Below the pieces are notes generated by a model that was not told the origin of the DNA, ran no database searches, and saw only the letters and a list, made by a program, of their open reading frames with translations. A program made the position numbers and the translations under genes. From positions 1,116,001 through 1,180,000 of the forward strand of contig KV419394.1 of the NCBI GenBank assembly GCA_001630475.1: a DNA stretch of 64,000 nt. Reading direction: 5' to 3'. This document shows, piece after piece, positions 6,153 to 30,505 of the stretch. Numbering within the stretch: position 1 is the first letter of the stretch; every line of letters begins with the position of its first letter. The DNA is from Sistotremastrum niveocremeum HHB9708. Its lineage: Eukaryota > Basidiomycota > Agaricomycetes > Sistotremastrales > Sistotremastraceae.

Positions 6153-7076
6153 ATGGTGTCACGGAGGCTCATGGGAGTGTGGGCGATCTTAGCCTTCTTC
6201 CTCGCCGCCGCGGGCGGTATTACCATTGCGTTCTCAATCATTTGGAAGGCCCCCAATCTCATGAGGAATATTGCTATTAGTTCGCAAGATTTACTTGGTG
6301 AGTACTCCTTCGTCATTACTATTCACTTGTACCAATGAGGTCCTCAGCCGGACTTGTCCTTGGAATCGCGTTCGTTGTCACCTTTGTCATTGCACTAGCA
6401 GCCATCATCCAGCCTAACCATAATGTCACCGGACTCGCTATTCTCAACTGGACGCTCCTTCTGGATGCTTTTGGAGTTGGAATCGTTGGCTCCTTCATCT
6501 GGTTCTATACCCTCACCGAAAGGAACGATTATCATCTTGTCATGAGCAAGGAGAGTGCAGCAACCTGGCAAGCAGTGCAAGACAAGGTGCGTCCTCCACC
6601 GCCGTCTTGTAAACCTCCATGTCACTGATATCACTTCGTAGCTGCAATGTTGCGGTTATTTCAACTCTACAGATCTAGGAACAATTGGTGGATTCTGTAC
6701 AGATGCAACGTTTGCGGCTAATGCGACGCCGTGCGTGGGGCCGATCACCGAATATGCTGATTACACATTGAACAACATCTTTTCGTGAGTATCTCCTGCC
6801 GAGTGAACTCCAAACATAACTGACGTATCCTCTTCTGATGTTAGTACGGTAAGCATCTGCATCACTCCGTTGACTAGTCTATTTATACCCACGGCACAGA
6901 TATATGGGTTCATGGCAGTAATCCTGGCGCTCTTCCTGGCAACGATGTGTGTTATTAAGAAGGCTCGTGATTATTGGTCTCCATTGGACCAGAGATACTG
7001 ACTGCGAACACAGAGAAACGAAGCTGAACGTTTCAGACGCATCGACGAGAAACGAGGAGGTCGAGGATTTGTTTGA
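6153..7076 (+). CDS. Tetraspanin (fungal Tsp2-like)
   Basis: Four transmembrane segments, a short first loop and a large second loop carrying the tetraspanin CCG motif (LQCCGYFNSTDL, with further Cys at GFCTD and TPCVG) identify a tetraspanin, a membrane organiser of the plasma membrane. TM1 is GVWAILAFFLAAAGGITIAF, TM2 begins AGLVLGIAFVVTFVIALAAI, TM3 is TLLLDAFGVGIVGSFIWFY and TM4 IYGFMAVILALFLATMCVI. A 4-nt exon (TACG, 6845-6848) sits just before TM4; without it the frame hits a stop. The C-terminal tail RFRRIDEKRGGRGFV resembles tails I recall from basidiomycete Tsp2 proteins and requires one more splice; its donor is ambiguous (GC donor after AAGAAG, or a weak GT a few bases earlier). 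Unspliced, the protein would end at 7001-7003. About 225 residues, five introns. Divergent from the Met8 gene. Confidence 0.88.
6845..6848 (+). other. Four-nucleotide microexon of the tetraspanin gene
   Basis: The exon ending ATCTTTTC is followed by a GTGAGT intron ending GATGTTAG, then TACG, then a second intron starting GTAAGC and ending CACAG before ATATATGGG. TC+T and ACG give Ser-Thr and keep TM4 in frame. Skipping the four bases gives an early stop. Confidence 0.8.
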
Positions 7077-7502
7077 TTATTTGCCGGTAACCATGATACA
7101 AAGTGCTAAAAGTATATTCCTTCTCATCTCCTTGCAATCTTTCTTTTTTCGTTTCCACATCCTCATTCCATCGTTGTTATTTACTCAATGACTCACTTTC
7201 CCTCTAACTTGTTGTTCTTTTCTCGCTGTCTGTCGCTCGCTTTACAAGAGATGTTGTTAACTTCCTGAGAAACATTAGAATAGATGGTGTACAGGTCTTT
7301 CCTGACAGGCATCTTAGAATTTGTATGTACTACTGAGATCCACAGGACACATTGGTGGTAATTACGAACGGACAAACAACATGCAAAACGAGAGAAAACT
7401 GCAAAAGTGATGGATGAGTCATGCAGGCATGGAATAGTAAATTACGTTGAACTGATAGCGTGGGTGTGGATGTACTGGTATATATTGTGAGGATGAATGT
7501 GA
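7077..7502. other. Intergenic, tail-to-tail 3' regions
   Basis: Between the tetraspanin stop and the nucleoporin stop. T-rich on the plus strand just after the tetraspanin. I see no coding potential, repeat or RNA gene; presumably 3' UTRs and poly(A) sites of both genes. Confidence 0.6.
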
Positions 7503-10500
7503 TCAATGCCGAGTTCCACCCCTCCGTCGAGGCAGGCCTTTGGTGGATCTACCAGCAGGTGCTGGCGGCGGCGGGGCTCCCATATTGAATATCGGCTGAT
7601 TAGGGGGTGCGCCGTTTGTAGCCGCACCGAATTGGAAGGGTGCCGACGTCGATGTGGGTGTAACAGGAAGTCCGGTGGCAGACAATGCTGGTGACGATGG
7701 TTGCGAGTTGAATGAAAACGGATTCGCAGGAGTAGGTACATTAAATGAAAACGGAGTGGTGGCTCGACTTCCGTCGCCGTTTGCGGCCGTGGCACTCAGC
7801 GGTTGCGTAGTTTGAGCAGGAGACCCGAAGGGGTTGGGCGAATGTGTTCCAAATGGAGCCTGGCTCTGCTCTGTGGTGGGGGTGGGGAATGAACCAAAAG
7901 CTGTCGATGGGGCACCGAATCCTGGGCCACTCGTCGACACACTGGGTTTTGAGGGCGCTGCACCAAATGCAAAGACAGACGGTGGTTGCGATGGGTGGAC
8001 GGGTGCTGGAGCAGATCCAAACGTGAACGGCGTTGCGGCACCTTCACTTTTGCTTTTTGCAACGTTCTGAGACCCAAATGAAGTAGAAGTAGAAGTGGAA
8101 GTAGAGGGGAGAGGTTCGCCGAATGAGAAAAGTGAAGTAGCTGGATTATTGTTGGGGGGAGCCGAAGACCCGAACGCGAAGCCGTTTCCAGAACCGAATG
8201 GCATCTGAGGCGCGGCGGGTCCAGATGAGGTGACTTTTATTTCGCGAGTTGGGCTTTCGTCCATGCTATCGGCTGGGCGAGGCTCGGGCGTTTTGGGTCG
8301 ACTTAAGGGTGCTGATAGTACCGCAGGCTGAGGAGACGGAGCTACGCTAGCGCCAAAAGTAAAAGGAGTAGAGGAAGTTCCGGGTGGGGCAGAAGGCTGA
8401 GATTGAACGGTCGTTGATCCAAAGATCGAAGTGCTCGGGGCACTCGAACTAGTTGGCGCTGAAGAAGGGAATCCGAAAGCGTTCTTTGCGGCTTCCCCAC
8501 CTGCACTGAAAGAAAACCCGGTGCTGGCTTTCGGAAGGCCACTTGGTGTTGAACTGGGACCCGCAGGTGGCCCTACAGTAGATGTAGTATCTGTGGGCTT
8601 TGGAAAAGTAGAAGGAAAGCCAAAACCAAGAGCTGAGGCTTTTGCCGTAGGAATGGAAGGCTCCGGAGTTGTTGGTGTAGGGGCAGACGATCCACCTGCC
8701 TTGTCGGATAGCCCGTTCAAACTGGAACCGAACATAGACTTGGGTGCTGACTCTTTGTCTTCCGGTTGCGCAGATGTTGTCGTAGATGCACTACTTCCTC
8801 CGAAAGAAAACGCAGCTGAGGTTGTGGGTTGAACGTTGACGCGAGGCTCGGGTGCATCGCTAGGTGGCGCCGAATTAACTGCACCACTGGCGGGCGGGAA
8901 ACCAATCCCAAGTCTCGAGGCCAAGGACGGCGCACTCGCAAGTTGTTCAGCAGCTTTACGTGGCGGCTCCGGAGTTGGAGGGATGACGCCAAGGGAAGGG
9001 ACGGACGAGTGGGATGGCAGCTGGGGCGACAAATTTGATGAAGTCGGCTTATCGGTACTGTCAGAAGACCCGGCAGATGGGCCGGAAGTGGTATTGCTAG
9101 AAAATGGAGGAGGAGGAGTGGCGGGTTTGACTGATGGGAAAGCAAATGGCAACGATGAAACCGGCGGCTCTTTTGAGTCTGTGTTGGTGCCAAATGATAG
9201 TTTGGGAGGGGGAGCAAATGACAAGACTGGGGCGGTTGAGGCAGAAGACCCGGTGGACTCGGTTGCAGAAGCTTCGTTTGCTTTCGCCTCTGTCGGGAGT
9301 ACCACAGCGGGCGCTGCAGCTGATTCCGCAGGAGAAGACTGGACAGAGATCAGCGAACAATGCGAAACGCAAGGGCATTGGACTAACTGGTTGCGACTGG
9401 GCTGGCGTACGACTGAACGAGCCAAAGCTAAAGCCATTAGGAATGTCGAACGTAGGAGCCGGAGCTTTGAGGAGCTCCTCTTTTGTCGGGAGACCCTGGA
9501 GGTGTTCTGCTTCAGGTTGCTCATCTTCGTCATCATCTTCAAAGCGAGCTGAGAATTTATTGCGGCCCGGTGCATGGGGCCGATTCACAACACGAGCAGC
9601 ACGAAGACTACTTGAGGAAGATGGATTGTTTGGATTCGTAGGTCGGCTAGGAACCTGGGCCCGCGAAGCAGATACTCGCCCACCCAGACTAGGCACTCTG
9701 AGCCCTTCGGAGGACGATGAAACACCATTGGACCCCGTTCTAGGGATGATGTCAATTTCATCGTCAGACGTGTCTTCAACAGTAGCAGCCCAGGGCGACT
9801 TTCCGGACCTCGAAGTGGACGAAGAAGCTCCCGGTCGTGCTGAATCTTTCTCCTTTCCTTTTCCTGAAGCCCCGTTCACCTTTTGGCTTTGTTCTAATGC
9901 TCTCTTATTGAGCAGTTTGCGCATACCACCCTCTCCCTCATAAGGCTTAATCAGATGTGCACTTTTCGAGCTCAGGGCACTGGAACGAGTCTTTCCAGGA
10001 CTCAGTGCCTGAGTGGATTTTATGATGCTCTTTGGAAGGGGGGGAGGGGGATACGAACGGCCAGTTCTCAAATATGTGTTGGCGGCAGGATCAGAGGCAT
10101 AGCTGGGCGGGAGCATTGGCGTTCTTAAAGCTTCTAGGGCTTGCAGTGCTCGCTCTGCAGGTGTAGAGGGAGCTGCTTTACTCGACGACTCTATGAAATA
10201 TCTTATTGATTACGCTGATGCTCGACAAGAGATAGAGACGTACGGTTCTTCTCGACCTCGTCAGGAGTCGTGATACCTAATGTGGGGTGCCATACTAGTC
10301 GTTGACGCGTGGAAGGCTAGGAGAGGGACGGATTTTGAGAAGTGAAAATCTGGTCAAAGGTCCCTACATACATCAGAGCTCATTTCTCGAAGAGGGGAAC
10401 TGGGGAGGCCGGGTCCTTCCTTGGGCCAAAGTAAAGCCGACTTCGAGGTTGAAAATTCTCTTCTCGTGGGACTGGGATTGGAGGGAGTAGGCTGTGGCGT

Positions 10501-20441: not shown

Positions 20442-22757
20442 CTAGCACTGCGACTCCAAACCCTTTGCAGCCGCGATAAATCGGAATATCTTCTCGATAT
20501 CTTTCCCATCACCGTCATCCTTTTCTACACCACCGCTCACGTCCACCGCCCACGGTTGGACGGTTGCGACCGCCTCCGCGACATTCTCGGGAGTCAAGCC
20601 TCCGGCAAGGATGATCGGCAGAGGTGTAGATTCTTCCCGCCGAGAGGCTTCACCGCGGTCGACAATGGTCTTCGCAAGGTCCCAATCGACGACAGTTCCA
20701 CTACCACCACTGAGGCCCTGAGGATCGCCCTTCCGAATTGAATCAAGGAGCAAGAATTTGTGTAAACCTGATCGAGTAATTTCTTGTAGTTGGACTCCTG
20801 CTCCAACGTGGAAAGCGCGAATAACGGGGACCGATATGAACTTTGACCATTCCAGCGGTTCCGATCCATGAAGCTGAACGATATCCAAGGGTACGCTGTG
20901 TACGATGTGTTGAATTTCCTCCAGGCTCTGTCCTTGGAAGACCCCAACGATCAGTGGTTTGTGGGTACCGACGGCCTTTTCGAGAGCATGCGCTTGGGTA
21001 GCGAACCAGCTCTGATTTTCGATGTTGCCAACTGGAGGCTCAAAAGGAACGGGAGTAGTCCTGAGCTCGTGTATGGCCGCGGCGATTGAGCTCGCAGTCT
21101 CCAGGTTGACAAATCGTTTGCTGCGAGGTGCAAAGACTAATCCGATCAGATCAGCACCTGCTTTAGCAGCTGCCAAGGCTTCTCCCGTCGTCTTCAAACC
21201 GCAGATTTTGACTAGCGGCGTCGGCTTTGATTGGACAACCGGAGGGGGCCCAAGACCCAGAAGCTCGCGGATGAAAGTGGCTGGATCAGATGCCCTCATC
21301 AAGGATTCGCCAACCAATACCGCCCCCACTCCTTGTTGAACATAATCTCTGACATCTTCTGCGCGTGTGATGCCACTCAGTGCACAGAGGATCACGTCAC
21401 GCTCGCGAACCATCTCGACCAGCCGAGAAGTAGTGCCCATGTCGACTTGGAAGTCGTGTAGATTGCGATTATTGACGCCAATGACTTTTGCGCCAAGATC
21501 CAATGCAGCGTGCATCTCGGCCGCATTGTTGACTTCCACCAAGGGCTCCATGCCCAAACTGAGAGAGAAGGTATATAGCGATTTAAGTCGAGGGAGAGGC
21601 AGCATTGCGACAATCAGAAGAACGGTATCGGCACCATGAAGCCTGGCTTCGCTGATCTGATATTCATCGAGAATAAAATCCTTTCGAAGAATAGCCGGGC
21701 GATTCGGTAAAGAATCCACAGCCTGTCGCGCCAGCCGCATATCTAACAACGACCCTTTGAACCACGTAGGCTCTGTAAGAACAGAGATTACGGAGGCTCC
21801 ACCGAGAGCATAGGTCAATGCTTGTTGCGCAGCATTGGCCGTGATAGAGATATCGCCCTTGGACGGCGAAGCACGCTTGATCTCTGCCATTAATGCAGGA
21901 TGTGTTCCATTCCGAAGGCGTGACACGAACGATGTAAGAGGGGGCGCGATGTTTAGGGATAGAAGAGTTTGGAGATCTGCTGGAGTAGTCCCAGGGGTCG
22001 TTCGCGCAACCTCGACGTCCTTGATGCGCTGGGTATGAATCTTCTCCAAGATAGTTGGTAGTCGACTGGCCAAAGACTCGGGTGCGTCTAATTTGAATGG
22101 AGGGAGGGAGATGTCATCGACTTTGACGTGTGGATTCTCGCCCCAAGTGGCGCCGTTGAGCGAAAGGAAGTTTTGAAGAAGAGCATCGCCTTGCTCTGAG
22201 AGGATGCTCTCGGGATGGTATTGCACCGATTCAATCGCATACGTTCGATGACGAACGCCCATGACAACGCCACTCTCCTGAGTCGTTGCCGTGATCTGCA
22301 GATCAGGAGGCAGGCTTTTGATTTCGGTGGCCAGCGAGTGGTAGCGAGTGCTGACGAAATTTTGAGGGATGCCTTGCATACACCCTCGCCCATCGTGTCT
22401 CACTTTACTCGTCTTCCCATGCATGATCTCCCCGGCGTATTCGATGTCTCCACCAAATATATCGACCATGCACTCCAGGCCCATGCAGACCCCCAGAATG
22501 GGTATTTTGCCGGCGAAATATTTGATGGCATCTCTAGAAATCCCAGAGTCTGTCTTGGGATGTCCAGGGCCCGGCGATATACACAGGCTTTTGATTTTTA
22601 GCAAGGGAAGCTGGTCTGCCGTGATGGCATTGTTGCGGATTACTGTGACATCCGCGCCCAACAGACAAAAGCTTTGGTATAGGTTCCAAGTGAACGAATC
22701 AAAGTTGTCTATGAGAAGCAGCTGGATCTCTTTTGTGAGAGCAGGAGGGAGAGACAT
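20442..22757 (-). CDS. TRP1: Trifunctional tryptophan enzyme: glutamine amidotransferase / indole-3-glycerol-phosphate synthase / phosphoribosylanthranilate isomerase
   Basis: A single 771-residue exon with the three-domain order known from filamentous fungi. Residues about 10-200 are a class I glutamine amidotransferase (LLLIDNFDSFTWNLYQ, SPGPGHPK, catalytic Cys91 in GVCMGLE, His-Pro-Glu in VQYHPES). It supplies ammonia to anthranilate synthase component I, which is not in this window. Residues about 235-505 are IGPS (LMAEIKRASPSKGDI, LRKDFILDEYQI, VIGVNNRNLHDF, GVGAVLVGESLMRA). Residues about 530-771 are PRAI (VKICGLKTTGEALAA, ADLIGLVFAPRSKRFV, IVQLHGSEP, ILAGGLTPENV, AVDVSGGVE). Together they catalyse three steps from chorismate/anthranilate to indole-glycerol phosphate in the cytosol. 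The absence of introns contrasts with most neighbours. Confidence 0.97.
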   Translation of the reverse strand: MSLPPALTKEIQLLLIDNFDSFTWNLYQSFCLLGADVTVIRNNAITADQLPLLKIKSLCISPGPGHPKTDSGISRDAIKYFAGKIPILGVCMGLECMVDIFGGDIEYAGEIMHGKTSKVRHDGRGCMQGIPQNFVSTRYHSLATEIKSLPPDLQITATTQESGVVMGVRHRTYAIESVQYHPESILSEQGDALLQNFLSLNGATWGENPHVKVDDISLPPFKLDAPESLASRLPTILEKIHTQRIKDVEVARTTPGTTPADLQTLLSLNIAPPLTSFVSRLRNGTHPALMAEIKRASPSKGDISITANAAQQALTYALGGASVISVLTEPTWFKGSLLDMRLARQAVDSLPNRPAILRKDFILDEYQISEARLHGADTVLLIVAMLPLPRLKSLYTFSLSLGMEPLVEVNNAAEMHAALDLGAKVIGVNNRNLHDFQVDMGTTSRLVEMVRERDVILCALSGITRAEDVRDYVQQGVGAVLVGESLMRASDPATFIRELLGLGPPPVVQSKPTPLVKICGLKTTGEALAAAKAGADLIGLVFAPRSKRFVNLETASSIAAAIHELRTTPVPFEPPVGNIENQSWFATQAHALEKAVGTHKPLIVGVFQGQSLEEIQHIVHSVPLDIVQLHGSEPLEWSKFISVPVIRAFHVGAGVQLQEITRSGLHKFLLLDSIRKGDPQGLSGGSGTVVDWDLAKTIVDRGEASRREESTPLPIILAGGLTPENVAEAVATVQPWAVDVSGGVEKDDGDGKDIEKIFRFIAAAKGLESQC

Positions 22758-23213
22758 TCCAGTTGAGTGACCGATGGGCTGTGAGTCGACTGGCCTGTTC
22801 CCAAGTCATCGTTTCCGGATATTCGGTTTCAAGTTCGGCTCGGTGTCGGACTTCCCAACGGCTTCTGATCTTGAAGGTGCTGTAACGACTGAAATTCACC
22901 CAGAAAAAATTCCTATGGAGGCATCAATTGGATGTAAATTTCCAGGCTTTGGAACGGCAGACTATCTTCAAACAAGGGATACATTAATATTGGAATTGTC
23001 ACATTCTTCGAAATTTGCAAATTGAAAGGATTCGTAAGGATTGGTTGCAAAGAGACTGGTTGAAATAATTGCGAAAGCCTGATCTCATCCACGAGTTACC
23101 TATGCCGTTCCGTTTTTTGAAGTGATGTAGAAGCTTGTAGGAGCCTCGAGTCTGTAAGGTACAACATGTGTTCGGAGTGATCGGCAGTCTCCTGGACCTG
23201 GATCCTATGGTTT
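22758..23213. promoter_or_regulatory. Divergent intergenic region between Trp1 and Gda1
   Basis: About 456 bp between two divergent start codons, so it must hold both promoters. An 83-codon open frame on plus (22,774-23,025) has no family features and is taken as chance. No clear TATA box or known operator could be assigned by eye. Confidence 0.5.
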
Positions 23214-25084
23214 ATGAGCCCAGACACTTCTCCTCATTCTGAGCTACGACACACCACCTCTGTCTCTACAGGTCATAGATATTCTGCATCCGCCACCCTT
23301 AGGATGCGACCTAATCAATTCAGCTTTTTCAACCGCTTTACAGGTGGCAACTCTCGCGGAGACTACAACAAGCTCGACGCATCAGCTCAAAAGAAGCTAG
23401 CCTGGAAGCGATACTCAATCGGCGCTGTTGTCATTCTTTTTCTGTTATGGGTATTTGGGCCTAGAGAAAGGCGAGAACGAGTTTTACGCCCATGGGGTGA
23501 GTCCAATCCACCAGTGCCTTGTCGTTGTCCGACTGACGACTGGGCGTTAGACGACCCTCCGAGTCATTTTGAAGACGATTACGATGGACCAAATGCTACG
23601 GACAAAACGATCGCCGGTCATATAGACATGCCTACGACCACTGCTAATAAAGCGGTGGCCACCATCGCTCCAGGAGCTGAAGTAGACCGCACCAAAACCA
23701 CCGCCTGCACTACCCCTCATGATCCTTCCCAACCTCTCGTCCAGTACGCGCTCATGATAGACGCAGGCTCCACCGGCTCTCGCATTCACATTTATAAATT
23801 CAACAATTGTCAGGCCCAAGCGACCTACGAATACGAAGTCTTCAGACAGACGCGACCTGGCTTGTCCAGCTATGCCGGCAAGCCATCTGCTGCCGCCGAA
23901 AGCTTAGATGTCCTTCTTACCGATGCCCTGGAAGTCGTTCCCGAGAGCCTGAGAAGTTGCACACCCGTCGCTGTCAAAGCTACGGCCGGTTTGCGCCTCC
24001 TGGGCGTTCAACAGGCTGCGGATATTCTAGCCGCCGTACGCGATCGCTTGCAATCCAAATATCCTTTCCCCCTCGCAGACAAGGATAGCGTCGTGATCAT
24101 GGACGGCAAGGATGAGGGAGTGTATGCTTGGATCACGGCCAATTATCTCCTCCATTCGATAGGTCCAGGCGCCACGTCAAAGACCAACACGTTTGCTGTC
24201 CTTGACCTTGGCGGCGCCTCGACGCAGATGGTCTTCGAGCCCGTTTTTGCGGACACTGGGAAATCCTTGGCTGATGGAGAGCATAAATACACACTCGACT
24301 TCGGTGGCCAGACTCACGAGCTGTATCAGCACTCGTACCTCGGCTACGGTTTAATGGCCGCTCGGGGCAGCGTTCATCGGCTGGTAGAGTTCATGGCCAC
24401 TGTTAGACTCTCGGCAAATGAAGACGCGGACGAAGTAGATGATCGCGTAGCAAATCCCTGTTTATCGCGAGGAACTACCAGGGTAATCGAGGTCAAGACG
24501 GGTGTCTCCTCGGTCCTTCGCAATGTCACGATGACCGGCGCGGACATAGGGAGCTATGAGGGCTGTCGTCGTGTCGTTGAATTAGTTTTGGCAAAAGACG
24601 CGTAAGTCCTGGTCCGTTGGCACCCCCTTCCCTACTAAACGTGAGCAGGATATGCCAACTTCACCCTTGTTCTTTCAATGGAGTCTATCAGCCATCTTTG
24701 CTTGACACTTTTCCCTTCGGCAAGGTTCTCCTTCTTTCATATTTCTATGACCGGCTTTTCCCGCTCCTTGCCAAAGATGACACCGACCCTACTCCAGTCT
24801 CGCTCCCGATTTCTCGCATCGCTGAACTTGCGCAAGATGTCTGTGCAGGACCCAAGAGCTGGGCCACCAAGTTTGGGACTAACAAACAAGCTATGGAGGA
24901 GTTGAATGATCGGCCAGAATACTGTCTTGATCTCACTTTTATGTATACTTTGCTGCGACTGGGTTATGAGTTTGAGGATGACAGAATGGTTATGCTTGGG
25001 AAGCAGATAGATTCTACAGAACTGGGATGGGCTTTGGGAGCAGGTATTGCACTTGTTGGTGCAAATCTAGAGTGTAAAGCATAA
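23214..25084 (+). CDS. GDA1: Guanosine-diphosphatase Gda1 (GDA1/CD39 family)
   Basis: A Golgi nucleoside diphosphatase that cleaves GDP to GMP so that GMP can be exchanged for GDP-mannose during glycosylation. It is a type II membrane protein of 607 residues: a cytoplasmic N-terminus, one transmembrane segment at about 67-82 (YSIGAVVILFLLWVFG), a Ser/Thr/Pro stem and the lumenal apyrase domain. Apyrase-conserved regions are visible: LMIDAGSTGSRIHIYKF (ACR1), VKATAGLRLLG (ACR2), DEGVYAWITANYLL (ACR3), VLDLGGASTQMVFEP (ACR4), and a C-terminal ELGWALGAG-like region (ACR5). One 47-nt intron splits LAKDA|ICQLHPCSFNG. The last 40 or so codons (from about 24,960) lie in the CpG-poor stretch described separately. 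Tail-to-tail with the WD40 gene. Confidence 0.95.
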
Positions 25085-25164
25085 ATTAATAATATATTAC
25101 ATCTTAGTATTCTGGTATCTCAAGTGTTGTCCACAATAAAAATGTATAAATTGGTTTCTAGTCC

Positions 25165-28007
25165 TCAGAATTTGGGGTATGCTTTTCTTCCTCTTGGATA
25201 TCTATAGTCATAGATTGCACCTCCACAGTCACCACTATGTGTTCATTTAGTTTGTCATCCAGTACAAAGGAAATTGTGATTTCACTCACACAACTAAAGG
25301 ATGATCTGCTGTATCTCCCAGGGAGAAGCTTGCAACATCATATTCAGAAGAAGATAATACCATGGAATCTTCAGGTGTCCCCAAGCTCTTACTAACATCC
25401 CACAGACGGACCATTCCTAAAATCAAATCAAATCAAATCATGGCACACATACCAACAGTGTCAATATTTCAGCTTACCGTCTGCACCACCTGTAACCAGA
25501 TTGTAATGTCCACAGCTTGCAAGAGCACTATCAGGTTGAAGCCATCTAACTCCAGTGATGCCATACAACTCCTTGTTAGCTGTTTTCTTGTCTGGGTGAT
25601 GGGATAGCCTCTTCAAGACTTTTTCATGTCTGAGGAAGCGAGTATCGTAAATGTCAATGATATCATCATTCCTTCCCAGAGCAAGAATCAGGCCATCTGG
25701 AGAATATGAGATGTCTGATATTTCTCCAAATAGTTGAGAACCAGTAAAACTTCGCACTCTGATAGAGGCAGATATTTTGTTGGATCTCTTTACATCCACA
25801 AGAGATAGCAGATGAGCTTGATCACTGACAGTCACTACTGCCAGCGTGTCTCCTGGGAAAAATGTGAAACAGATAGCTCACAAATAAACAATGAATACCT
25901 TTGGGAGCAAGACTCATTGCATCACTTGAGCCTTTGCATTCCTGCAATGACCACCTCTCTCTGCATGTGCTAACATCAAAGGCTTTGTGACATCCAGTGA
26001 TATTGTTTTCACTCTCAGTGGAAGTGAAAAGGAGACCAGATGATGCAGAATAACCAAAAATGATTTTCCCTGTGCTTTCATGATTATTGCTAGCAGAGGT
26101 TCTTAGTTTGGCTAAATTCTTGATAATGCTATTGCTGCCATCAGTTTGGATTGCATTGAGATAAACATTGCTATAAGATTGAATCAGTATATGCTTTGTG
26201 AATAAACAAGTCCGGACCTTTTCTTTGTTGCAACAGCACAAAGACTGTGATCTGGATGCCACTCAAGATCAGTTGGAGTCCACTCAGAGTCCCCTGAGAA
26301 AATAAATGAGAGAACAGGTTATTTGATGTTTATTTGAATCCATACAGGATGCTTGTTTCACTGTCTTGCATTCATTGGTGTTACAGACATGAGTCCACAG
26401 TTGAATGCTTCCATCACATCCTAACAAATCTTCAATGTGTGAATGCAAATGAAGAGAATAGCAACATACCAGTTGTTACAAATCTTCCAGCTCTAACAAT
26501 TGTGAGACATTTCAGTGAAGAGCAGAAAGCCAATTGTCCAACCTTTGGAGATCAAACTTAACACCAGTTACACTATAAAACTTAACCTGGTCTTGTGGAA
26601 TAGGTGCTTGAGGTCTTTTACTCAGAGTCTTAAATTGATTTGTATGGTGAGCTCCTTCTACTTTGCATACTGCATTTTTGTCATTCAGATTGGGTTCAGT
26701 TAGTGATAAAACACTTACACCTGTTTTTGCAAAGAACCATGAGGTTTCCATCCCCGTTATATGGATCAGGGAGGGTGTCTAAATTGACGTCAGTCACATT
26801 GAATGTGAGATACTTGAAGATATAAGTACTTCTATTTCCCTGTCTCTGGTGTCCTTCTGGTTCTGCTTGTCCACCAGATGTGGCACTTCCAATGACCACA
26901 AGATTATTCTGATGTGCAATACACATAATGCCTAAAACAACATCAGTAATAGCAATCAATGCAACACCCAGATTGATTGTACTAACTGCCTGGGGCCTCT
27001 TTATACTGAGCTTGATAACCCCATAACATTGATTTGCTTGGTTGATGCTTTGGTTTGGGACCAGCTTAACAACATATTCAGTTGAAAACCTTCTTCATAA
27101 TAAATTCAAATCCAAACCAAGATGCTAAGAGTTTGGCATTCCTTGAGACATATTGGCATACATGAATTCCATCAATCACCTACTAGATCATGCCATACAG
27201 TATGCCTCCTTACTTGCACTTGAGGCCTGCTGTAGAATTGCTGTTCGAGTGTTGTTGTAATCACTTCGAATGTGGGTTCGTCATCCAGAGGCTTGACAAC
27301 TGGGTCAGATAAAGAGAGTGTCGCTAGCTTTCCGAGATTGTAATCCGAGTAGCAATCTGACTCCAAGAATCTTTGTGACCCAGACATAGGTGCAGTCCAC
27401 TAGGTTTGGATTAGATATATACCTTGATCTCGAAAGGTGACGGGATACCGTGGTATTGTTGAGGATGCGGTAGCCCTCGTGGATGAAATCATAGTCTTCA
27501 GGCTCTGCCGGATGATAATCTTCTAAATCAATCTTAATCGGGTTTCCGCTTTGACCACCGTTGATTGATGTGCGAGCTTTTTTTGTCTAAAACGCATGAA
27601 GCCATAGCGTGTTTGCATACGAATAATAGGGCTACGTACTGGAGATGGCGAAACTGACAATATCTCAATATCTGAGTCCGACTCGTAAATAGAGTAGACG
27701 GGTTGCCGGTGGCGCTCTTTGCGTTTGACGCTGGTCAGTTCTGTAAAGCAAGGGTATGCATAAGCTAATGCAGCGACGAAAGAAAAAAAATCGCACTTTT
27801 TCTAGAGGATGTCGAGGGCACATTCGACTCTTTGTCAGAGCCACTGAGAACATAAATCGGCGGGTTTGAGATTGAGATGATATCCAAGTCATCATCCTCG
27901 ACTTTGTACGGCCGGCCTCGCGTTTGGGATCGATTCGAATTCCCACTACTTTTTGACGTTGAAGCCTTTGGCCGTCGATCCCGCGACATTCGTGGTGTGT
28001 TGGACAA
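25165..28007 (-). CDS. WD40-repeat protein with acidic, SIM-like N-terminus
   Basis: A multi-exon gene of about 700 codons that I cannot assign to a named family. The N-terminal 200 residues are low complexity and carry several hydrophobic-acidic cores resembling SUMO-interacting motifs: DLDIISISNPPIYVLSGSD, YESDSDIEILSVS and NPIKIDLEDY. The rest is a WD40 propeller: GSIMCIAHQNNLVVIGSATS, RAGRFVTTGCDGSIQLWTH, TPTDLEWHPDHSLCAVATKK, ISDISYSPDGLILALGRNDD, IIDIYDTRFL, LVTGGADGMVRLWDVS and PLVVGDCGGAIYDY before the stop at 25165. Exons from 27,205 down to the 3' end lie in a stretch nearly lacking CpG, yet a continuous frame can be built, with Arg almost always AGA/AGG and no NCG codons in most exons. 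It includes a 7-nt exon (27118-27124) and a 23-nt exon. Start is 28007, or 27992 if the second Met is used. Divergent from Spt8 with 151 bp between starts. Exon ends in the CpG-poor half are approximate. Confidence 0.75.
25421..25440. repeat. Pentanucleotide tandem repeat in an intron
   Basis: Four copies of AATCA (aatcaaatcaaatcaaatca) lie inside an intron of the WD40 gene, near its acceptor on the minus strand. A small microsatellite, probably of no functional weight. Confidence 0.8.
27118..27124 (-). other. Seven-nucleotide microexon of the WD40 gene
   Basis: Between the exon ending CCTCAAGTGCAA and the exon beginning CTGGTCCC, the only way I find to keep the downstream frame (AGPKPKHQPSKSMLWGYQAQ) is to include CATCTTG, flanked by ...CTCTTAG and GTTTGG. 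The support is frame only, with no known family sequence to check against. Confidence 0.5.
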
Positions 28008-28158
28008 CAGCCGCGGCGCGAGTTAACCAACACCGCGACACGACTCAGAGGACTTGCTTCAGATTTTGCGCGTGAGAACGAAGCGCGCTGAAACTGACAC
28101 TGCTAAGCCGCTCGAGGGTAGAGAATCAGTGGAACCCTCTGCAGAAGCTGAAGTCAAT

Positions 28159-30505
28159 ATGTCCGCTGCTGGCACAGAATCCGAAGAGGAGCTGTTTGAC
28201 GAGGAGGGCGAGAGCGATAACGAAGAAGAGGTGGATGAAGACCTTGCTGAGACCGTGGATGCAGTTGACGCTGTCGATCAAGACCAAGAAATGGACGAGG
28301 ACTCGGATGGCGACGAGGTAACAAGCTTCCTCTTGGCCCTTGCCCAATCTCACGGCCGAGGACGTTCAGGATAGTGACGACTCACAGGAAGAAGATGACG
28401 AAGATGAAGACGGTTCGTCGCAAGATGGGGACGAGGGGGACGATGACGACGAACAGTCACAAAGTCAGCAGGATACTGTCGAGAAGCCCGAAACTGTTAC
28501 AAGGGCAAGTTCGTCTTTCTTTTCCTGCCTCCGACTGCTTGAAGCCAACGTCTCGTCTAGGCCCTAAATCTTCTGGACTTCCACGATCTATTTCACCCGC
28601 GCAAGCTCGCAGGACATTGTTTCGACCCGCCGTTGCCCACCCTCGGTCCTACACGATTGATGCTATATGTGCTCTGCCACATCCAGTTGCCACTCATGCG
28701 CTCGCTGCATCCCTCTGCATGACTCACCTTTTGACTGGTTCTGACGATGGTTATATCCGAGACTATGACATTTACGCTGCATGCAATGGCAAGACATTTC
28801 TGACCGCCCCTCAACGACATCACTGTGGTTTCGTAGAAGGGATCATGAAGGCTGGTGTCATTCGTAGTTGGTGGGAAAATGCTCCTTCGAATACAAAGAC
28901 GTCAGAGGACCCCGTCGAACCAACCTATTCACCAGTCTACAGCTTGCTGCTGCACTCGGACGCCCTTTGGGGCCTTTCTGGAAGTAAAGTACGATTTCAC
29001 CCTTGGCACCCGAAACTTCAAAGCTGAATTTCCCGAGCTAGGATGGGCGAATCGGACTGTATACTGTAAGACATCAGCCAGGAACCATGTGCCACACTCT
29101 GCACGCTCATAAAGGGCCCGTTTCGGCGATGGCCCTGTTGCCCGACCAGAAAGGGTTTTTCAGTGTTGGCTGGGACGGTAATGCTTTGGTACGTGCCAAA
29201 CCAATGAGACGAGCGGCGCAGCTCAAACGCTTCGGTAGCAATGGGATCTAAACACCGGACAAATTGCACGCAGTTTCCCTTCTCAGGGTGCTCAACTGTC
29301 TGCAGTTGCTCTGAGACCAGTGTATCTTGGTGCGGACACAGGTCTTATGGCTTACGGAGCCTCAGTTGCGCCCGCCACTGCTCCCCCTAGTGATGCCTTC
29401 CGTTCACCCACAAGTTCACCAATTGAGCAGGTACCACCTGCAATTACGTCCCAACCTCGGAACCCCGAATCATCGAACGTGCCAGCCTCGACGAAGCCCA
29501 ACGATTCTGCCGATGTTCAGCATAACGTCGAGCTCAAATCCGAAGCGTCCTACGATCCTCTGTTTGATGAACCAGATCTTGAGAACGCTGAAGGCGCATT
29601 CTTTGATCGTCCCGCACGCTCGTCGTATTCCTCCCCAGAAAAGCCTGCGCCTGCGCCCCAAAAGCCGGCCCCATCAGGTCTTGCGGTTCCTGGTGAACCA
29701 GTGGCACAATTCCGGACGGGAAAGCCGGTCACAAATACCAACGCAGCAACTGGGGGTCACTATCGAAATCCTGTGTTGGATTCCTCTATGGCAGCGAAGT
29801 TCTCCCATGACGTTCTTCTTACCGCAGCCATCGACGGGCAAGTCATCCTTTGGGACCGAAGGGTGCAGTCACCATCTGGTGGCGGAGTGGGACGGTTGGA
29901 AATGGCCGACAAAACCCCTCCTTGGTGTGTCTCTGTACGTACAAGTTTGTTTGAGACGAAAAATAATAACATATTGTCAGGCTTGCTGGTCATCTGATGG
30001 GATGCACATATATGCTGGTCGAAGGAACGGGACGGTTGACGTATGGGATACTCGGCAGTTAGGAAGAGATGGCGCCCAAGCACCCCGTTTGCTGAGAACA
30101 TTGCGGAATCCACCCAGCTCGGGAGAGGTTTCTTGCGTTGCGGCCTTTCCTGATGGTAGACACATTGCTTGGTATGACAGCTCCTCAGACACGTCCTTTT
30201 TGGTATTGATATCTATCGCCAAGTGCTTCAAACGATAATATCAGACTCTGGAACACGTCAGAGTCGCCCGAGGAGTCGCGTTCGCGTACGACGCCTTTCA
30301 AAATTGTCACTGGTCATCATGGAGGGAACGTTTCACAAATGCGTGAGCCTTGTTTATCACTCAGTGGTTGCCATTCTGTAGCTCAGGTTATTGTCTAGTC
30401 ATCGATCCTGCCGCTCGTTTCATGATCTCAGCAAGCGGCAATAGGGGGTGGTTTGGGGATTCTACACGGACTGTATTGGTTCATGAGATCAAGGCGTTGT
30501 TATGA
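28159..30505 (+). CDS. SPT8: SAGA complex subunit Spt8
   Basis: Spt8 is the WD40 subunit of the SAGA coactivator that contacts TBP in the nucleus. The N-terminus is a long Asp/Glu/Ser tract (EEELFDEEGESDNEEE onward), as in other Spt8 proteins. The diagnostic block follows: YTIDAICALPHPVATHALAA, CMTHLLTGSDDGYIRDYDIY, TFLTAPQRHHCGFVEGIMKAG, then DGRIGLYTVRHQPGTMCHTL and HAHKGPVSAMALLPDQKG. After a disordered Pro/Ser insert come VLLTAAIDGQVILWDRR, GMHIYAGRRNGTVDVWDTRQ, SNDNIRLWNTSE and MLIDPAARFMISASGNRGW. Start at 28159 (MSAAGTESEEEL); the frame upstream has no ATG. About nine exons of canonical GT..AG introns; the donor after TVTRA is GTTCGT, although a GC donor lies four bases earlier. About 640 residues. 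Tail-to-tail with Vac1. Confidence 0.94.

Follow-up and report, generated by a model that had tools for sequence, protein, structure and literature searches.

A CpG-emptied tract over a single-copy WD40 gene of Sistotremastrum niveocremeum and a second one over its DNMT1-type gene, probable scars of long-kept CpG methylation

Can a fungus keep CpG methylation on one of its own genes for so long that the codons of the gene are rewritten? The question is raised by a locus of Sistotremastrum niveocremeum HHB9708 (now Sertulicium niveocremeum; assembly of 34.7 Mb in 111 contigs), at which a sharply bounded CpG-depleted tract covers most of a gene for a WD40 protein and reaches into the convergent Gda1 gene at its 3′ end. 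The stretch that was analysed, referred to as the window, comprises 64 000 nucleotides (C1:1116001-1180000). A methylation scar at this place would come as a surprise: in fungi, methylation is considered to lie mainly on transposons, while here a host gene and, as reported below, a DNA methyltransferase gene would carry it.

Results

A CpG-specific loss at the DNA level

A first, sequence-only reading had counted nine CpG in about 2.28 kb. An exact count of the CpG that lie after the one at 24956 and before the one at 27246 likewise gives nine, with first bases at 25407, 25478, 25639, 25646, 25753, 25845, 26213, 26755 and 26788. CpG-poor segments were scored along the window with 300 shuffles as the null, and the observed-to-expected ratio (O/E) was also computed in 500-bp bins. 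The top-scoring segment (24833-27243) has a score of 110, as compared with 6.5 for the runner-up and a shuffle maximum of 13.2 (n=300). Its machine-counted CpG O/E is 0.11 versus 0.95 in the remaining window. The four full tract bins lie at 0.06-0.18 and the right-edge bin at 0.50, whereas 0.65 is the minimum among all other bins of the window, so that the rest of the window is indeed unlike the tract, as had been claimed. Both edges are abrupt and lie inside genes.

The proposed enrichment of TG and CA was also borne out. TG O/E is 1.51 in the segment versus 1.08 outside, and CA O/E is 1.47 versus 1.11, with TA O/E unchanged (0.64 and 0.63). CG alone falls from 5.9 per 100 bp in the flanks to 0.4 in the tract, while the sum of CG, TG and CA is nearly kept (19.6 and 18.2), and most of the lost CpG can thus be accounted for as TpG or CpA. 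The GC content is 49.9% in the flanks and 39.8% in the tract.

The 3′ end of the Gda1 gene, the intergenic gap and the introns and exons of the WD40 gene are all depleted, in keeping with the DNA-level effect assumed earlier. A selection or mutation bias on CpG unrelated to methylation, acting for example on the transcript or on chromatin, would be compatible with the sequence alone. We consider it quite improbable, as introns and gap are depleted as strongly as exons, and as the loss is specific for CpG and mostly balanced by TpG and CpA.

The tract follows the body of the WD40 gene

Counting CpG per exon and intron reveals a layout that is tied to the WD40 gene (Table 1). The first ~740 bp of the gene are CpG-normal, and exon 4 (27399-27180), which spans the tract edge, has an O/E of 0.51. 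From intron 4 to exon 15, five CpG are found in exon 13 and one each in exons 7 and 14 and introns 6 and 11; all other exons and introns have none. The tract extends ~210 bp beyond the WD40 stop codon, across the 80-bp gap (25085-25164) and into the last 128 bp of the Gda1 gene, which is otherwise CpG-normal. As had been suggested, the WD40 frame is continuous: its 15 exons contain no internal stop, and the arginine codons of the tract part are mostly AGR (21, versus 3 CGN), while the 5′ part has 11 CGN and 2 AGR.

The tract is single-copy, since the search for a second copy by genome-wide DNA comparison against the assembly returned the self match only. Internal repeats as a trigger were sought in 24500-28000, with only short imperfect matches of 16-22 nt, and no structured RNA reached the gathering threshold in 22000-30000. 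Methylation or heterochromatin could still have spread into the gene from a nearby or since-lost transposon, and methylation near transposons is described as the common fungal pattern (PMC13297926, PMC5974365). However, none of the 30 reverse-transcriptase (RT) matches listed genome-wide lies in the window (the search covered reverse transcriptases and not DNA transposons), the 80 bp that separate the WD40 and Gda1 genes leave no room for an element, and the tract keeps to the gene and does not fade with distance. We regard spreading as unlikely.

Gene-scale depletion is rare

To place the tract against the genome, we used a blind sample of 24 loci chosen by place (233 068 bases without N, besides the window). 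Only one out of 466 bins of 500 bp had an O/E under 0.3, and no gene-scale CpG-poor tract was present in these 24 loci. A 25th place-chosen locus at a contig end of C1 (L008) and two loci fetched for the DNMT gene (L024, L025) were excluded from this count. The single low bin is in L018, a locus of contig C9, where a short AT-rich stretch (L018:6343-6798) has one CpG and ends which by eye resemble terminal inverted repeats; it is possibly a miniature inverted-repeat transposable element. An N run follows at 7068-10000.

The excluded contig end (L008:1-5800) carries a Ty3/Gypsy-type element with zero CpG in 5460 bp. The element, apparently intact, has a gag-like frame and a 1303-residue frame with 0 CGN and 77 AGR codons. 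Related Gypsy pieces on C27, C32 and C63 are likewise depleted. Depletion of retroelements as a class was rejected, as nine of 10 RT probes of 90 bp, chosen among the 30 listed matches, carry 3-13 CpG; the tenth (L039) carries one. That retroelements are mostly CpG-normal speaks against an efficient repeat-induced process as well as against a general methylation decay of transposons. Depletion of WD40 genes as a class was rejected too: all six probes of other WD40 genes (90 bp, from 150 listed WD40 matches) are CpG-normal, with 3-8 CpG each.

The DNMT1-type gene carries a second tract

A genome search with PF00145 (C5 methylase), performed without regard to CpG content, led to two places, on contigs C10 and C15. 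No DNMT1-type gene other than the one on C15 was found in the genome, and the body of this gene coincides with a tract (398562-402972) that contains 22 CpG (O/E 0.11). By parts, O/E is 1.10 in the upstream flank, 0.81 in exon 1 (397966-398550), 0.10 in the body, 0.19 after the stop codon and 1.05 in the far flank. Depletion starts near the end of exon 1 and runs ~370-690 bp beyond the DNMT stop, ending in a convergent gene for a protein with a Crb2-type Tudor domain, the 3′ exons of which are putative and defined by frames only. The layout of a spared 5′ end, a depleted body and an end within a convergent neighbour is therefore found in both depleted genes, at unlinked loci.

The orthologue from Sistotremastrum suecicum (P0133, 1148 residues) shows 97% identity over 62% of a rough query in the best local alignment. 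It contains PF00145 (7.4e-34), PF12047 (RFD; 2.8e-6) and PF01426 (BAH; 5.6e-7), the last at 29.9 bits and thus just below the cut-off of 30.8 bits. P0133 has 14 matches in the genome, every one of them on the C15 gene, and 3 kb of this gene match only themselves, so that it is single-copy. Genome matches are also present for SRA, Pre-SET, Piwi and RNA-dependent RNA polymerase (RdRP). The PF00145 locus on C10 (144458-147883, L022) is a methylase-like gene of another type and is CpG-normal (O/E 1.07).

Finding a depleted DNMT1 gene after inspection of two methylase loci is, in our judgement, unlikely to be due to chance, because so little depletion occurs elsewhere; it is one case. The sequence-only reading had proposed a methylated island on one single-copy host gene. 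Single-copy status stands. The WD40 gene is not the only depleted one, the DNMT1-type gene and a Gypsy family being alike, and the tract has a gene-body-like layout rather than that of a free-standing island.

Arginine codons and the age of the loss

Arginine codons were pooled over the WD40, Gda1 and DNMT genes and compared between tract and non-tract parts; DNMT codons were counted only where eight-residue words are common with the orthologue, divergent stretches being omitted. The ratio of CGN to AGR is 14/57 inside the tracts and 44/12 outside (p = 2.7e-11). Arginine itself is about as frequent in the tracts (WD40 4.9%, DNMT 5.2%) as outside (5.8-6.6%). Of the three CGN codons that remain in the WD40 tract, two encode the two arginines (in the motifs YDTR and VRLW) that are invariant across an alignment of eight sequences. 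This codon pattern looks like slow CpG loss under selection for the protein.

A mutational burst would have left other marks. In a process like repeat-induced point mutation (RIP) or methylation induced premeiotically (MIP), the segment would once have been duplicated; as repeated DNA it would have undergone either a burst of mutation at CpG or methylation, and the other copy would later have been lost. The tract edges inside genes are what the ends of a duplicated piece would look like, one Gypsy family of S. niveocremeum is CpG-free, and CpG-type mutation is possible in basidiomycete transposons according to PMC4352252. Yet after a burst one would expect codons for Cys, His, Gln and Trp as well as stop codons; AGR-coded arginine and the intact frames argue for slow loss and not for RIP. 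In addition, both tracts are now single-copy, TA is not raised, CA is raised instead of lowered, nearly all RT probes retain CpG, and both genes share the spared 5′ end. We judge an origin of this kind improbable.

Age was assessed by comparison with S. suecicum HHB10207. The DNMT body differs from the orthologue at 20 of 750 aligned residues, four of which are possibly due to CpG decay in S. niveocremeum, and the CpG-normal 5′ part at nine of 186, one being of the CpG-decay type; the body has no excess of recent CpG-type replacements. For the WD40 protein, identity to the S. suecicum protein P0001 is 86% over the whole query, with gaps that stem from an intron kept as coding in the query and from parts missing in the deposited model; in stretches free of gaps and overhangs it is 98.6-100%, with two residue differences visible. 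We infer that most of the CpG loss predates the split from S. suecicum, because recent CpG-type replacements are not in excess, the WD40 protein is nearly identical and arginine is AGR-coded; this comparison of proteins implies no date. The earlier proposal of a long-lived state thus appears probably right as to age, on the grounds of the near-identical protein and the AGR codons.

The same figures bear on introgression or gene conversion from a CpG-poor lineage, which would produce abrupt edges cutting genes. It would have to generate the same layout relative to gene starts at two unlinked loci, and the DNMT protein is as close to that of S. suecicum in the tract as outside. This origin is very improbable.

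Gene models at the locus

Coordinates are given in Table 1. WD40 exons 4-15 are supported by P0001, and exons 1-3, which are missing from this deposited protein, were placed by splice signals alone. Exon 10 and part of exon 13 are likewise absent from the S. suecicum model as deposited. HHB9708 itself is not represented among the 12 homologues listed for the WD40 gene; the odd base composition may mislead gene finders here. The Gda1 protein, by contrast, is 100% identical over 81% of the query to a protein recorded for HHB9708. The other homologues, from Rickenella, Pholiota, Infundibulicybe, Obba, Trametes and Hymenopellis, are 26-35% identical. Among the Pfam models, those for WD40 repeats and for propellers in general matched the WD40 protein, mostly with scores far under the cut-offs, and comparison with solved structures gave distant WD40 matches only.

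Table 1. Positions of the CpG-depleted tract and of the genes it touches, in window coordinates.
Feature	Position	Strand	Remarks
CpG-depleted tract	24957..27245	.	9 CpG; flanking CpG at 24956 and 27246
WD40 gene, 15 exons	25165..27989	-	Stop 25165-25167, proposed ATG 27989; spliced frame without internal stop
WD40 gene, 5′ part, CpG-normal	27246..27989	-	Exons/introns 1-3, O/E 1.08-1.61
Body and 3′ end of the WD40 gene (introns 4-14, exons 5-15), CpG-emptied	25165..27179	-	CpG only in exons 7, 13 and 14 and introns 6 and 11
Gda1 coding sequence, last 128 bp including stop, zero CpG	24957..25084	+	Convergent to WD40 gene
Gda1/CD39 nucleoside phosphatase gene	23181..25084	+	Exon 1 is a stop-to-stop frame from 23181; second exon ends at 25084

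Discussion

The CpG-specific loss, balanced by TpG and CpA in coding and non-coding DNA, very probably reflects decay of methylated CpG in one form or another. We favour, with moderate confidence, the interpretation that a working gene was CpG-methylated over its body and 3′ end for a very long time, with the 5′ end left unmethylated, and that the tract is the resulting mutational scar. A gene-body-type mark on a few host genes, among them that of DNMT1 itself, appears about equally well founded, that is, somewhat probable. In the course of many generations, deamination would have turned methylated cytosines into thymines, under selection that preserved the protein; arginine would have persisted mostly as AGA or AGG, and CpG mostly where codons cannot move.

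How the mark was laid down can be suggested with less assurance. It may have been placed over the transcribed unit and its terminator and copied by DNMT1 together with an SRA-type partner. Perhaps the gene is stage-limited and the mark formed part of a facultative heterochromatin island on it, with H3K9 methylation coming first and an SRA protein and DNMT1 then copying the CpG marks. Such islands occur at meiotic genes of fission yeast. An island of this type would explain why the 3′ end is covered and why the tract runs over into the convergent neighbour.

Several observations weigh against a methylation scar of the gene-body type. The layout has been seen in only two genes, one of which served to define it. 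Both tracts overrun the 3′ ends of their genes into the neighbours, which a strict gene-body mark would not do, and the far (right) edge on C15 is more gradual than the tract edges in the window. Even among the retroelements, methylation decay is not the rule, and other WD40 genes that were probed are CpG-normal. Finally, the age is derived from proteins only.

As to function, we tentatively prefer a feedback, on balance a doubtful one, by which active DNMT1 would mark its own gene along with a few others. In its full form, which we likewise put forward as speculation, the sole DNMT1 would write a heritable mark on its own gene body and on a very small set of host genes including the WD40 gene; passed on from a time that precedes the divergence from S. 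suecicum, this mark would constitute an epigenetic feedback or stage switch that is legible as CpG-emptied gene bodies.

If the interpretation as a long-kept methylation scar is true, a mark on individual genes can persist in a fungus for so long that their codons are rewritten, and there is a cheap, sequence-only route to finding such genes. Self-regulation of DNMT1 would become directly testable in a small genome. A search of the open-access literature revealed no account of the WD40 locus or of a CpG-emptied DNMT1 gene.

Comparison with known systems

Gene-body methylation of animals and plants is CpG-specific, covers exons and introns and spares the 5′ end. The tracts of S. niveocremeum resemble it in the CpG-specific loss over exons and introns of conserved single-copy genes with a spared 5′ end. 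They differ in that they occur in a fungus and in very few genes, and continue beyond the 3′ end into the gene that converges on it. For fungi, reviews describe gene-body methylation as largely lost or generally negligible (PMC13297926). A study on Pleurotus reports 365 and 163 methylated gene bodies in two species, with one orthologue pair in common, and a tendency of the methylated genes towards lower expression and closer transposons (PMC6627472). In Puccinia striiformis, CG body methylation goes with the lower-expressed allele (PMC12129025). As in these species, the genes described here are basidiomycete genes with a CG mark, in our case a presumed one, in the body. The marks in Pleurotus and Puccinia are measured, present-day marks, whereas the CpG loss in S. 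niveocremeum, as read from the DNA letters alone, would imply persistence sufficient to rewrite codons.

In the literature considered here (PMC13297926, PMC7862722, PMC4352252, PMC8889193, PMC5974365, PMC6627472, PMC12129025 and PMC9083364), basidiomycetes are described as having mainly DNMT1 with RFD and DNMT5, with a preference for CG, and CpG-type transposon decay is said to accompany Masc2-type enzymes (PMC4352252 and PMC7862722). The signature of CpG changed to TpG and CpA and the presence of a DNMT1-RFD enzyme are shared with this decay of the Masc2/DNMT1 type. It acts on transposon copies, however, while in S. niveocremeum two single-copy genes are affected and most probed retroelements are CpG-normal. 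DNMT5-type methylation in Cryptococcus, located at repeats and centromeres, is kept over evolutionary time by maintenance alone. Long-term maintenance is the idea common to both systems; in S. niveocremeum, it would concern host genes and a DNMT1-RFD enzyme.

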